NCBI GenBank assembly: GCA_027013095.1
Contig: JALUYI010000023.1
Span: forward strand, 124,001 to 188,000
Origin: Paracoccaceae bacterium
GTDB lineage: Bacteria; Pseudomonadota; Alphaproteobacteria; Rhodobacterales; Rhodobacteraceae
Direction of reading: 5' to 3'
Length of the DNA stretch: 64,000 nt
The notes beneath the pieces were generated by a model, which saw nothing but the letters and a program-made list of their open reading frames with translations, had not been told where the DNA came from and did not search any database. The translations under genes were made by a program, and so were the position numbers. This document shows positions 20,050 to 30,479 of this stretch, one piece after another (positions within the stretch are counted from its first letter, which is position 1; each line of letters begins with the position of its first letter).

Positions 20050-21630
20050 TCAATAACCCAGCGCGCAGCCATCCTTGCGCGGATCCGAGGCCCCTTCCAG
20101 AACCCCGGTTTCGTGGTTCACGACAATCGCCTGACCGCCGCCCAGCGGGGCCGGCGGGGTAACCACCTCATGCCCTAGATCGCTCAATTCCTGACGCACC
20201 TTATCAGAATAGCCGCGCTCAACCTTGAGAACACCCTGATCGGCAAAACTGCGCGGCGCATCCAGCGCCTCCTGAACATTCATCCCGAAATCCACGAGGT
20301 TCGAGACAAGGCGCACATGCCCCGTGGGTTGATAGGCCCCACCCATGACGCCAAAGGACATGACCAGACGATCATCCTTTTTCAACATCGCCGGGATGAT
20401 CGTATGCATAGGCCGCTTGCCCGGCCCCGCTTCATTCGGGTGACCAGCCTCCAAGGTGAATCCCGCACCTCGGTTCTGAAAGTTGATCCCGTATTTTTTG
20501 GACGCAAGGCCCGAGCCAAACCCATGATAAATCGAATAGATCAGAGACACTGCCATCCGGTCACGATCAACGACCGTCACATATACGGTATCCTTGTGCA
20601 CGGTCTCGGTCCTTTTGCTCACTTGCGTCATCGCCCGTTTTGGGTCGATCAGGGCTGCCAGTTTGCGCGCAAACTGCATGGACAGCATATGCTCCATCTG
20701 CGTCGCCGGGGTTTCGTGGGCGATGAACCGATTGCGCGCATCATAGGCTAACTTGGCCGCCTCGGCCTCGATATGCGCCCGCGCCGAGCCATAGGGGTCC
20801 ATCGTCGGTAGATCAAACAGCGCGAGGATATGATTCATCAGAATCGCGGTGGCACCCTGACCGTTTGGCGGATGCTCGAGCAGTTCGATATCCTTGTAGG
20901 TACCACTTATTGGCTGCGTGTAATCACATGAATTTTGTGAGAAATCATCCAGCGTATGGACCCCGCCCAGCGCGTTCAGCGAAAAGACCATATCCTCGGC
21001 AATCTCGCCTTCATAAAAAGCCGCGCGCCCGTCCAGCGCAATGCGCTGCCACACCTCGGCCTGTTGCGGCGCCTGATAGATCCGCCCCGGCTGCGGAGTC
21101 TGGCCCTCAAACAGAAGGAATTTCCGTGCATCCCCCCTCAGGAACTCGGCCGAGTTTTGCCAGTCAAACGCGGTTCGCGGCGCGACCGGCACACCCGCCT
21201 TGGCATAGTAGATCGCCGGAGCCAGGCTGGCCTTCAGGCCCAGTTTGCCCCAGTCCTGTGAAAGACGGCAGAACGCATCGACCGCCCCCGGAACCGTAAC
21301 CGCCGCAGCGTCATGCAGAGGCATGACCCGGTGCCCCTCGGCGCGCAACCTTTCCGCCGACAATTTTTCCGGTGCACGTCCTGAGCCATTCAGCCCAATC
21401 ACCTGATCCTGACCGCTGGGCTTCAGCAGGACAAAACAATCGCCGCCAAGACCACACATCAAAGGTTCACAAACCCCCAGCAAAGCCGCAGCAGCAAGTG
21501 CCGCATCAACGGCGTTGCCACCAGAATCCAGCATTTGCACCGCGACCTTGGCCGCCAACGGATGCGAGGTTGCGCACATCCCGTTTGCAGCAAAAACCGC
21601 CGAGCGGCCCGGAAGCTGAAAATCACGCAT
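20050..21630 (-). CDS. Gamma-glutamyltransferase-like Ntn hydrolase
   Basis: A 526-residue member of the gamma-glutamyltransferase family, whose members self-cleave and use the new N-terminal Thr to cleave gamma-glutamyl amides such as glutathione. Family signatures are GGNAVDAALAAAALLGVCEP, GLGGDCFVLL and, near the C-terminus, MGGAYQPTGHVRLVSNLVD. At the processing site the sequence reads DTVYVTVVD where classic enzymes have TTHxSVVD, so the Thr is kept but its Thr-His neighbours are changed. No signal peptide is visible, suggesting a cytoplasmic enzyme. Two start codons 12 bases apart are possible. Leader element C lies just upstream. Confidence 0.85.
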   Translation of the reverse strand: MRDFQLPGRSAVFAANGMCATSHPLAAKVAVQMLDSGGNAVDAALAAAALLGVCEPLMCGLGGDCFVLLKPSGQDQVIGLNGSGRAPEKLSAERLRAEGHRVMPLHDAAAVTVPGAVDAFCRLSQDWGKLGLKASLAPAIYYAKAGVPVAPRTAFDWQNSAEFLRGDARKFLLFEGQTPQPGRIYQAPQQAEVWQRIALDGRAAFYEGEIAEDMVFSLNALGGVHTLDDFSQNSCDYTQPISGTYKDIELLEHPPNGQGATAILMNHILALFDLPTMDPYGSARAHIEAEAAKLAYDARNRFIAHETPATQMEHMLSMQFARKLAALIDPKRAMTQVSKRTETVHKDTVYVTVVDRDRMAVSLIYSIYHGFGSGLASKKYGINFQNRGAGFTLEAGHPNEAGPGKRPMHTIIPAMLKKDDRLVMSFGVMGGAYQPTGHVRLVSNLVDFGMNVQEALDAPRSFADQGVLKVERGYSDKVRQELSDLGHEVVTPPAPLGGGQAIVVNHETGVLEGASDPRKDGCALGY

Positions 21631-21653
21631 GGATTGGACCATCCCTACAGGGC

Positions 21654-21751
21654 CGGTTGAGAATCACCTTGTCGCATCGGTTTTCGCCCTACTCCACCAG
21701 TGCGACCGATATTGCACAGCCGAAGAGCGCGTCTTTCAAGCGGTATTTGCA
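21654..21751 (-). promoter_or_regulatory. Repeated upstream element, copy C (before gamma-glutamyltransferase-like gene)
   Basis: On the minus strand, CTTGAAAG (21740-21733), 14 bases, then TGTGCAATATCGG (21718-21706) match the core in copies A and B. The following 50 bases align with copy A at about three quarters identity (for example CACTGGTGGAGTAGGG against CATTGGCGGATTTGGG, and a shared CTCAAC/GTCAAC). One base is missing relative to A, which breaks the reading frame seen in A and B. It ends 24 bases before the chosen start codon. Confidence 0.5.
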
Positions 21752-21841
21752 TCGAAACGGGGAATTTTCGGCAAAATCTCGGCGGAACACCGCAAAAATT
21801 GCACCCCGCACGCCCCAAAGAATGACGTCTGGTCGAAAACC

Positions 21842-21865
21842 AAAAAACCCCACCATTTGGTGGGG
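21842..21865 (-). terminator. Intrinsic terminator of candidate small RNA 1
   Basis: On the minus strand CCCCACC and GGTGGGG arms with a four-base loop are followed by six T residues. Confidence 0.75.
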
Positions 21866-21968
21866 CCAAGTTTTGGTTGTAGTCCCCGGCATCGCGGATC
21901 TGGGTGGGGGCTGATTAACCGCGATACCGGGGTGAGCCTTCGCTCGCTACGGGGATTGTTATCACATC
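21842..21968 (-). ncRNA. Candidate small RNA 1 (twin of small RNA 2)
   Basis: Read on the minus strand, an 84-base sequence shared with small RNA 2 (plus-strand positions 21881-21964, about 90% identical) is followed by an intrinsic terminator. The shared part folds into a small GAGC-GAAG-GCTC hairpin and then a 14-pair stem (21884-21897 with 21919-21932), whose loop holds the C-rich run CAGCCCCCACCC. The one plus-strand mismatch (C90 against A26 within the stem) becomes a G-U pair on the minus strand, so transcription from minus is favoured. The 5' end is estimated only. No known family is claimed. Confidence 0.6.
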
Positions 21969-22037
21969 CAATCGGGGCCGAAACTTGTGCGGAAACGGGC
22001 AAAATGACGGCAAATCCCCGTTTTCAGGAAATGATAC

Positions 22038-22054
22038 GTTTCCTGTGCGGAAAC
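22038..22054. promoter_or_regulatory. Operator-like inverted repeat between the twin small RNAs
   Basis: GTTTCC-TGTGC-GGAAAC is a perfect six-base inverted repeat. It overlaps a second one, GGAAA-N7-TTTCC at 22027-22043. The right half, TGTGCGGAAAC, recurs 58 bases away at 21986-21996. These lie just upstream (minus strand) of candidate small RNA 1 and may be binding sites of a regulator. No protein is assigned. Confidence 0.35.
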
Positions 22055-22067
22055 AAACAAAACAGGT

Positions 22068-22098
22068 AAAAAAAAGCCCCCGTTTGATCCACGGGGGC
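22068..22098 (-). terminator. Intrinsic terminator of candidate small RNA 2
   Basis: On the minus strand GCCCCCGT and ACGGGGGC arms flank a seven-base loop and are followed by eight T residues: a strong terminator. Confidence 0.85.
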
Positions 22099-22204
22099 TG
22101 TCAGTTTCTAGCTGGTAGCTCCCGGTATCGCGGATCTGGGTGGGGGCTGATTAACCGCGACACCGGGATGAGCCTTCGCTCGCTACGAGGGTCGTTATCA
22201 CCGG
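22068..22204 (-). ncRNA. Candidate small RNA 2 (twin of small RNA 1)
   Basis: Second copy of the 84-base unit (22117-22200 on the plus strand) followed on the minus strand by its own, unrelated intrinsic terminator. The 14-pair stem joins 22120-22133 with 22155-22168. The outermost pair has changed from C-G in copy 1 to T-A here, a compensatory change. The single plus-strand A-C mismatch (22127 with 22161) is a U-G pair on the minus strand. Possible promoter on the minus strand: TTGACT near 22257-22252 with a TAATTC-like -10 about 15 bases on. The C-rich loop is identical to copy 1. Confidence 0.6.
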
Positions 22205-22310
22205 CAATCGCGGCGCAAAAAGGGTTCAGTTCGGAATTATTTCCGACGATTTTCAGTCAAAATTGTGATCCGCGCTTGATTTGGCAGAATTTCGCCGACA
22301 GACTGCCGAC

Positions 22311-22658
22311 ATGGTCACAGAAACCCGGTCCGAGCAGCTTTCTGGTTTGCCGCCACCCCGGCAGGTCAGTTTTCATCGCACCGAACTGGGCGTGATTCTA
22401 TCCCTTTACGGGCGCATGGTGGCAGCAGGGGAATGGCGGGATTATGGAATTTCGTGCCTGCACGAGGTTGCCGTGTTCTCGGTTTTCCGCCGCGCAGCCG
22501 AAACGCCTCTTTACCGGATCGAGAAACGCCCCACCTTGGCGCGAAAGCAGGGCCAATATGCAATCATCGCCATGAACGGACAGGTTCTGCGCCGCGGCCA
22601 CGACCTGAAAACGGTTTTGCGCATCCTCGAGCGAAAATTGATTCGTATTGTCGAATAA
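22311..22658 (+). CDS. DUF2794 domain protein
   Basis: A 115-residue protein, function unknown, of a family confined largely to alphaproteobacteria. Recognisable features are QVSFHRTELGVILSLYGRMV near residue 20, EWRDYGISCLHEVAVFSVFR near 43, and the C-terminal RHxLxxVLRILERKLIRI-type helix. The start at 22311 (MVTETRSEQ) gives the usual length; a TTG 30 bases upstream would also be in frame, and neither has a clear ribosome site. It is divergent from candidate small RNA 2, whose promoter region it shares. Confidence 0.85.
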   Translation: MVTETRSEQLSGLPPPRQVSFHRTELGVILSLYGRMVAAGEWRDYGISCLHEVAVFSVFRRAAETPLYRIEKRPTLARKQGQYAIIAMNGQVLRRGHDLKTVLRILERKLIRIVE

Positions 22659-29559: not shown

Positions 29560-29681
29560 CGGGATTCCCCCTTAACTCACAAACCGGAAATAAAAAACCC
29601 TAACGCAGCTTGATGCTACCGGTAAAGTTGGTGAGTTTCAGGGCGGAACCGTGGTAAGATGCGGCAATTATATGGCCGAAA

Positions 29682-30479
29682 TCAGGCCCCTTTGACGACG
29701 TTGGCCAGCACCAGAACATTCATGATCTGATCGAAATTCTCTGGCAGGCTGCTGTTTGCATTGGTCAGCCGAAAGCCTCGCAAGAGCGAGCTTGAGATCG
29801 ACTGAAGATCATCCGGGAAGCGTTGGAAAAACGCCCGAGCGGCGGTGAACAGATCCCATCCCTCGGGTTTCATCATGGCCTGTTCAAAATCTATCGCATA
29901 GAGCCGTTTGTCATCCCCAAGGATGAAATTCCCCAGCGCGTTGTCGTTGTGTGCCAAAGCCATATGCGCGGGCTCGGCTGATTTCAACAGCGATCCTTGC
30001 GCCGCCAGCAGCTCGTGATCAAAACCGGTTTCATAATTTGCCAGATAATCCGCCCAGCTCCCCTTGGCCGGTTTTCGCGGTGCAATCCCGGCCATCCGGC
30101 CAAACCACTGGCCCAGAAATTCACTGCGCTGCAGCAGATTATTGACGTCAAGATCCCGCTCAAAGGGCGCCCCCGGAATGAAGCGGGTCAGAATGGCCCG
30201 GTCCCGCTCGGAAACCAGCAAAAGTTTTGGCACATCAAGGCGCTGCAAGCCCGCCAGAGCCCGGTGTTCGCGCGAAAAGGCCAGTCGCCCCTCGAGCGAA
30301 TCGGAAAAGAGTTTCACAATGCCCTCTTTATCCCCGACACTCAGCCGCAGCGTTTTCGCATGGTCCGCCGACTTCAGCGCCACTGCCTCGAGAGATTTTT
30401 CGGTGCGCTCGGGACGCAAAGCGGCAGCGATCGCATCCGCCAGCCGGCTTAGAACCTTTTGCGGGTCAATGTCTGCCAC
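29682..30479 (-). CDS. Aminoglycoside phosphotransferase/choline-kinase-like protein
   Basis: A 265-residue protein kinase-like fold. The catalytic loop reads LAHNDNALGNFILGDDKRLY near 188 (HxDxxxxN type) and the metal-binding motif is AIDFEQAMMKPEGWD near 208. These match the APH superfamily, in which small molecules or sugars are phosphorylated. The N-lobe is short and lacks an obvious glycine loop. Substrate unknown; nothing suggests antibiotic resistance specifically. It lies eight bases downstream of the membrane winged-helix gene on the same strand, so the two are probably co-transcribed and may act together in signalling. Confidence 0.75.
   Translation of the reverse strand: MADIDPQKVLSRLADAIAAALRPERTEKSLEAVALKSADHAKTLRLSVGDKEGIVKLFSDSLEGRLAFSREHRALAGLQRLDVPKLLLVSERDRAILTRFIPGAPFERDLDVNNLLQRSEFLGQWFGRMAGIAPRKPAKGSWADYLANYETGFDHELLAAQGSLLKSAEPAHMALAHNDNALGNFILGDDKRLYAIDFEQAMMKPEGWDLFTAARAFFQRFPDDLQSISSSLLRGFRLTNANSSLPENFDQIMNVLVLANVVKGA

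Follow-up and report, generated by a model that had tools for sequence, protein, structure and literature searches.

Two hairpin units on the minus strand of the window

The window (the whole 64,000-nt stretch of DNA that was analyzed, from a Paracoccaceae bacterium) carries two similar units on its minus strand, located between a divergent DUF2794 gene and a downstream gene for gamma-glutamyltransferase (ggt). Between positions 22246 and 21842, each unit runs from GTAGC through a short hairpin and then the 14-bp stem, whose loop is TTAATCAGCCCCCACCCAGAT, to an intrinsic terminator of its own. The features of the locus, including the predicted RNA parts, are as follows.

22281 to 22658, plus strand: divergent DUF2794 gene, which marks a D-type locus (see below); PF10984, E 1.4e-40
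22192 to 22246, minus strand: region upstream of copy 1, in the register of an 11-bp array, with a putative GATAAC -10-like element at about 22194 to 22199; array analysis
22119 to 22186, minus strand: conserved core of predicted small RNA copy 1 (5' hairpin and main stem-loop); RNA model R1, 77.6 bits, E 1.6e-15 in the own genome
22155 to 22168, minus strand: 5' arm of the copy 1 stem, 14 bp, pairing with 22120 to 22133; alignment and covariation
22134 to 22154, minus strand: apical loop of copy 1, TTAATCAGCCCCCACCCAGAT, including the nearly invariant GCCCCCACCCA; loop columns of 93 distinct sequences
22120 to 22133, minus strand: 3' arm of the copy 1 stem; alignment and covariation
22068 to 22099, minus strand: intrinsic terminator of copy 1, 9-bp stem and 8 T; sequence and terminator scan
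21956 to 22010, minus strand: region upstream of copy 2, in the same array register, CCGTCATTTTG CCCGTTTCCGC ACAAGTTTCGG CCCCGATTGGA; array analysis
21883 to 21950, minus strand: conserved core of predicted small RNA copy 2; R1, 77.4 bits, E 1.8e-15 in the own genome
21919 to 21932, minus strand: 5' arm of the copy 2 stem, pairing with 21884 to 21897; alignment and covariation test
21898 to 21918, minus strand: apical loop of copy 2, same letters as in copy 1; alignment
21884 to 21897, minus strand: 3' arm of the copy 2 stem; alignment and covariation test
21842 to 21867, minus strand: intrinsic terminator of copy 2, 6 T; sequence and terminator scan
20050 to 21642, minus strand: downstream ggt, whose true start is likely at about 21630, judging from relatives; PF01019, E 1.7e-126

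Beyond the DUF2794 gene, the window contains NlpC/P60 and M17 peptidase genes; on the downstream side it contains ggt and genes for a rhodanese, a YccV-like protein (HspQ), and a transglycosylase. The units form a gapless direct repeat of 105 nt (21879 to 21983 and 22115 to 22219; 87% identity, spacing 236 bp), within which the 84-base unit of a preliminary description would fall.

That description, made from the two sequences alone, had claimed two minus-strand hairpin copies with separate intrinsic terminators of 8 and 6 T. The sequence and a terminator scan confirmed this. The copy 1 terminator reads AGCCCCCGT-GGATCAA-ACGGGGGCT followed by 8 T and ends at 22068, and the copy 2 terminator reads GGCCCCACC-AAAT-GGTGGGGTT followed by 6 T and ends at 21842; both were among five sites found on the two strands of 21600 to 22450, where shuffled sequences led us to expect 1.3. 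A promoter scan of the same interval listed no sigma70-type promoter (0.5 expected). The alignment also bore out that the 14-pair stem is kept in both copies, with a different outer pair in each (U-A in copy 1, C-G in copy 2), and that G-U pairs arise on the minus strand only: an A-U pair of copy 2 is replaced by G-U in copy 1, and a U-A pair of copy 1 by U-G in copy 2. Folding z-scores were -4.8 and -5.9 for the minus strand and -3.5 and -3.0 for the plus strand.

The element is widespread in the bacterial family

A DNA search of 149 genomes of the window's bacterial family matched 19, the own genome counted. The candidate L014 was rejected as a member because its match lies in a different part of the query. 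Alignment A2 and model R1 were built from 20 members, namely, the two window copies and 18 members from 17 other genomes; a further model, R2, was built from 53 members. In the own genome, R1 found the window copies with E values of about 1e-15, the copies themselves being part of its training; together with the conserved family, these matches place the window feature far beyond chance.

The RNA-model search that had been proposed across the window's bacterial family yielded R1 matches in 296 of 394 sampled genomes (about three quarters). Across a sample of the class, R1 matched 5 of 385 genomes, four of them in the same family and one weak and doubtful. This match outside the family, in G435 (E 7.5e-4, 30.6 bits), contains AACAGCCCCAACCCGG and was judged by eye to be due to chance. 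R2 recovered all 80 of the weaker carriers. When 40 of the 98 genomes without an R1 match were searched again with laxer filters, 8 gave a match at E 0.05 and 2 at E 0.001. Of the nine weak places from this search, L059, L060, L062, and L063 look by eye like diverged relatives, and the remainder look like chance. Thus, a recognizable copy is perhaps missing in between one-fifth and one-quarter of the species sampled.

A scan of named genomes, which used a gap of 15 to 19 where 13 is typical and found only 10 loci, served for names only; all 10 loci were confirmed by R2. The named carriers are Rhodovulum visakhapatnamense, R. kholense, and Silicimonas algicola, along with metagenomic Silicimonas (3), Boseongicola, Tropicimonas, Paracoccaceae bacterium, and Rhodobacteraceae bacterium; the two carrier species looked up at NCBI fall in the Rhodobacterales, Paracoccaceae, which suggests that the window's family corresponds to the Rhodobacteraceae taken broadly. 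Copy number reaches four, in a row, in G169, a genome of the window's genus. A further 80 loci, hand-picked from the listed places, were fetched and contained 94 members.

The preliminary description could not match the RNAs to a named family, and an Rfam search likewise gave no family at cut-off in the window or in seven homologous loci. The units belong to a small RNA family that is new, has no Rfam match, and is of an ordinary type, but stands out for a loop that is nearly invariant, for its placement at two fixed loci, and for the phased array upstream. The family-wide distribution, the two loci, the loop, and the array all go beyond what had been described.

A covarying stem on one strand

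In a model-fitted alignment of 52 distinct rows, 11 of the 14 stem pairs were changed on both sides (98 such cells), and 98.5% of the cells were paired. On every measure, the observed value exceeded all 500 shuffles, and when the stem partner was slid, the paired cells fell to 34 to 51%. An unfitted MAFFT alignment of 20 sequences had double changes at 7 of 14 pairs (27 cells) and 97.4% paired cells; by the number of double-changed pairs, 6 of 500 shuffles were equally good. RNAalifold recovered 13 of the 14 pairs unaided. Homologues whose changes break the stem had been named beforehand as a finding that would speak against paired RNAs; with 98.5 and 97.4% of cells paired, neither alignment bore this out.

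Among 93 distinct rows drawn from the 80 further loci, the stem pairs on the strand equivalent to the window's minus strand comprised 1,134 Watson-Crick, 108 G-U, and 10 A-C pairs. The excess of G-U over A-C shows that the RNA strand is the window's minus strand. With the homologues added, the pairing, the G-U bias, and the covariation support the earlier view of two paralogous minus-strand RNAs. A conserved, covarying structure on one strand, as sought for a small RNA gene, is present, and the units are very probably real small RNA genes, whose copies would be expressed.

By their 5' hairpin, members with GCTG within the first nine letters were assigned to type G and all others to type D, giving 61 G and 33 D members among the 94 (35 D with both window copies). 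At least four perfect pairs of the 5' hairpin were present in 29 of 35 D copies (5.2 in shuffles), and the letters differ among D copies while the pairing is kept (GAAGC/GCTTC, GTCTC/GAGAC, and CAGC/GCTG). A 4-bp G-type hairpin was found in 26 of 61 copies (10.2 in shuffles). The outer GTAG/CTAC helix seen in the window occurs in 10 of 35 D copies (1.7 in shuffles) and in 6 of 61 G copies (6.5 in shuffles); it was rejected as a family trait because G copies stand at the shuffle level.

Copies occupy two kinds of locus

D loci lie by the divergent DUF2794 gene in 29 of 30 cases, about 90 to 340 nt from its aligned part, and 26 of the 30 have no ggt in the fetched stretch. The sole D locus without DUF2794, L135, sits before ggt. 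At G loci, ggt follows on the same strand in 45 of 52 cases, at a distance of 52 to 510 nt. Two loci, L104 and L114, carry both types and were counted in both sets. All 15 genomes with two separate fetched loci have one D and one G locus. The window and G169 represent both loci merged, with DUF2794, the copies, and ggt; in G169, three D copies come first and then a single G copy adjoining ggt, and the window's genome has two matches only, both D-like.

Upstream of 40 of the 52 G loci and on the same strand, we observed an RsbW-like (HATPase) gene at a median distance of 179 nt, preceded by a STAS gene (e.g., L099:2885-3725 and L107:3479-3946). The pair is likely a partner-switch module, and a functional link between it and the small RNA is possible.

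Seven of the 52 G loci lack an intact ggt in the fetched stretch (L089, L099, L101, L107, L123, L131, and L139). In all of these except L107, hspQ lies 49 to 367 nt past the element; in L101, a ggt start is followed by an early stop, and L107 has a DUF805 gene where some other genomes have DUF805 after ggt. With the window GGT as the query, two of the seven genomes gave no match and five gave at most 42% identity, versus 59 to 72% for the GGT at 47 element-bearing loci, indicating that this ggt was lost in these genomes and not moved. The element nevertheless scores 70 to 85 bits at the seven loci. Since G copies persist without ggt, the element is not simply a ggt leader, and we did not find it to be a cis-leader or riboswitch of the ggt 5' UTR.

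The loop is nearly invariant

Of 93 distinct sequences, 88 carry the loop core GCCCCCACCCA unchanged. By column, all 93 have CCCCC and the two C residues that follow the A; the leading G, the A, and the third C are each conserved in 92 sequences and the last A in 89. Because the search models reward the loop, this near-invariance is partly an effect of selection by the search. Altered loops were found in the four diverged places named above and in a weak second copy in L012 (30.6 bits). Free change in the stem but not in the loop argues for the loop as the working part.

A crude search of the own genome for loop complements with two mismatches gave 108 sites, two of which are the elements themselves, versus 105 for the reversed pattern, and thus no enrichment; 15 of these loci were viewed and had no obvious preference for gene starts. 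The window ggt has TGGGTGGGGCC over the residues GVMGGAYQP, a tempting site for pairing with the loop. At 35 ggt loci, however, the two glycine codons of this site read GGCGGC in 17 cases, GGCGGG in 10, and GGTGGG in 2. Pairing of the loop with ggt mRNA was rejected because the site is not conserved.

A phased array precedes most copies

Upstream of the predicted start, C-rich positions recur at -59, -48, -37, and -26, each with A/T after it, giving a consensus of CC-N2-AWW boxes at 11-bp spacing, with the array as a whole at -60 to -16; the window's own boxes are weaker than this consensus. The autocorrelation of C upstream peaks at 11 and again at 22, and CC pairs 11 apart within -77 to -10 have a frequency of 0.046, compared to 0.013 in shuffled sequences and 0.010 to 0.016 in three control regions. 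The pattern was noticed first and then tested on the same related sequences, in which at least three of four CC boxes are in phase in 68 of 95 members versus 5 of 475 at control offsets.

In ten genomes, the array pattern with one mismatch gave 87 sites (two being the element's own promoters and a few overlapping) versus 37 with the pattern reversed; the regulon may thus be wider. Individual matches precede the gene for an RNase D-like 3'-5' exonuclease in L200 and L213 and a PPK2 gene in L198; in L202, a match lies between the gene for PEP carboxykinase and a divergently oriented gene for an OmpR-type response regulator. The window has a further match, with one mismatch, at 29658 to 29686 on the minus strand, 98 nt before a 329-aa ORF.

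Phasing of 11 bp is typical of OmpR/PhoB-type regulators; intrinsic bending is an alternative reading of the array. Compared by eye and as far as the consulted texts give the motifs, the CC-N2-AWW array looks different from the CenR sites, TGA-N8-TGA (PMC9275681), from the NtrX motif, GCA-N9-TGC, and from Sinorhizobium inverted repeats.

A promoter pattern set after the sequences had been seen, TTGRMN-N16-18-TANNNT, occurs between the element and ggt in 25 of 96 members (24 of G type and L135; 0.7 in shuffles). Within 90 nt upstream of the elements, it was found in 0 of 96.

3' ends of the copies

Strict U-run terminators follow 18 of 35 D copies, including both window copies, and 2 of 61 G copies, these two being the first copies of tandem pairs; some G copies may thus read into ggt. 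Further D terminators appear imperfect by eye. Among the members without a U-run terminator, many G copies have a C run (CTTACCCCCC and similar) 5 to 15 nt past the stem, which may mark a Rho-dependent or processed 3' end. CCCC occurs within 30 nt in 37 of 61 G copies; as a mark of type G it is weak because 18 of 35 D copies have it too.

Proposed mode of action and alternative explanations

On balance, we consider it somewhat more likely than not that the units are independent, activator-controlled genes for trans-acting small RNAs with the C-rich loop as a seed. Each gene would give a minus-strand transcript of its own, of about 110 to 120 nt if the predicted start lies near GTAGC (22186 and 21950). 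The transcript would fold into the short 5' hairpin and the 14-bp stem that displays the C-rich loop and would end at its own terminator, and the two window units are sibling copies of a multicopy Rhodobacterales small RNA family. The single-stranded loop (AGCCCCCACCCAG) would most likely pair in trans with G-rich stretches of several mRNAs and alter their translation or decay, the covarying stem only presenting the loop, and the copies would act additively. A putative DNA-binding activator on the phased 11-bp boxes would probably switch the transcription of most copies. For the loop itself, the chance that it acts as a base-pairing seed is a little better than even. We prefer base pairing over protein binding by precedent. 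The C-rich terminator-hairpin loop of RepG from Helicobacter pairs with a G-rich mRNA stretch, and it works as we propose for this loop, although its bacterium and sequence are unrelated.

A near-invariant loop of 11 nt is unusual for a seed that serves many targets and fits protein binding equally. The RNAs could be decoys or scaffolds for an RNA-binding protein, with the loop as the protein site and the copies raising the titrating capacity, as CsrB-type RNAs titrate CsrA. Consistent with this are the contrast between loop core and freely varying stem, the tandem copies (up to four per genome), and the lack of enrichment of loop complements. Each RNA, however, offers a single loop site and not many, and no candidate protein partner for the loop was identified; we regard this explanation as rather unlikely. 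In a more far-reaching version, which we hold to be unlikely, the RNA would be a family-wide global riboregulator at two fixed loci, without an Rfam match, whose loop would be the dock for an unrecognized RNA-binding protein or for one very conserved RNA, and an uncharacterized activator would read the 11-bp CC-AWW arrays, which are found before other genes too.

The remaining explanations tie the element to its neighbors or to the DNA. A cis-acting ggt leader (attenuator or riboswitch), with the D copies as by-products, would suit the 45 of 52 G loci with ggt 52 to 510 nt downstream on the same strand and the rarity of U-run terminators in G copies (2 of 61). It is very unlikely, given that the element is kept at 7 of 52 G loci without an intact ggt, that a sigma70-like promoter separates the element from ggt in 25 of 96 members, and that 29 of 30 D loci lie by DUF2794, 26 of 30 having no ggt in the fetched stretch. 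The RsbW-like gene upstream of 40 of 52 G loci (same strand, median 179 nt) could in turn suggest that an mRNA from upstream ends in the hairpin, as a 3'-UTR terminator or a processed RNA of this gene. At 29 of 30 D loci, however, the upstream gene is divergent, so that no mRNA leads into the first D copy, and the phased array lies upstream of 68 of 95 members, making such an origin highly improbable. A DNA-level element, i.e., a repeat, a mobile hairpin (REP/MITE-like), or a protein-binding site, would account for a repeated and palindromic sequence that lies mostly behind an array resembling phased protein sites. Yet 108 G-U versus 10 A-C pairs are expected only for an RNA from one strand, the 80 loci fall into two kinds of place and are not scattered, and terminators follow 18 of 35 D copies; this last explanation is extremely improbable.

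The Rhodobacterales abound in the sea, and among them are model organisms of anoxygenic photosynthesis. Because about three quarters of the sampled genomes of the family carry the RNA, at two fixed places and with a loop that hardly changes, deletion and pull-down are feasible in several laboratory species. The near-identity of the loop in many marine and photosynthetic relatives, together with the lack of a match in the RNA library, points to a probable, widely shared regulator whose targets can now be sought, and the phased array offers a handle on the controlling transcription factor.

Relation to known RNAs

In a lax Rfam scan, suhB/MmgR had the lowest E value, and BjrC174 came next among small RNAs of related bacteria, both far below cut-off. 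For suhB/MmgR (RF00519), the lowest E was 0.27 and that of copy 1 was 0.77 (18.2 and 16.4 bits versus a cut-off of 41). Like the window units, this bacterial small RNA combines a single-stranded stretch containing C with a strong terminator, but mostly the terminator aligns well, and the 14-bp stem and the loop motif lie outside the RF00519 model. For BjrC174 of Bradyrhizobium (RF02355), E was 0.5 (18.3 and 16.6 bits versus a cut-off of 45). Both have a long stem, a loop rich in C (in the BjrC174 model, CAGCCCCCAGCCCC), and a terminator; the BjrC174 stem, however, is longer and unlike that of the window element. According to the part of the source consulted, BjrC174 is abundant and had the highest promoter activity among the tested starts without a mapped promoter (PMC4842269). 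In 289 genomes of the class, the BjrC174 model gave one subthreshold match (33.5 bits). This long, BjrC174-like hairpin (L058:1501-1585, minus strand) comes from a different family of the class, has the loop CCCCCAAGCCCCCAGCCCCC, and adjoins, by eye, an ABC transporter-like gene. Its architecture is similar to that of the element, perhaps by convergence, but its neighbor is neither ggt nor DUF2794.

Among tandem small RNAs, the CcsR/cuckoo RNAs have the loop motif CUCCUCCC and a DUF1127 gene upstream. They resemble the window units in belonging to the same order and in forming rows of similar copies with C-rich loops. They differ in the loop, CUCCUCCC versus GCCCCCACCCA, and in their DUF1127 neighbor, the window having DUF2794 and GGT; moreover, the two window copies have separate terminators and upstream regions. 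CcsR1-4 of Rhodobacter are described, in the text available to us, as Hfq dependent and cut by RNase E from one cotranscript (PMC7866481). AbcR1/AbcR2 are also two similar tandem small RNAs of an alphaproteobacterium, as far as the portion consulted tells (PMC3712013); the window units were set apart from them by the lack of an Rfam match at cut-off, not by direct sequence comparison.

In the portions of the open-access literature that were consulted (PMC9561847 and PMC7240162 included), no paper could be tied to the element. The terms DUF2794, glutamyl, transpeptidase, and CCCCCACCC are absent from the main texts of PMC5107571, PMC4809877, PMC8307010, and PMC7866481, and glutamyltrans and DUF2794 are absent from PMC8625941. 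An RNA-seq screen may contain the element as a numbered entry. One possible counterpart is the Paracoccus RNA "intergenic 100," which, according to the part of the source seen, is 137 nt long, is conserved in two Rhodobacter species and Celeribacter, and shares its context with an RNA of R. sphaeroides.
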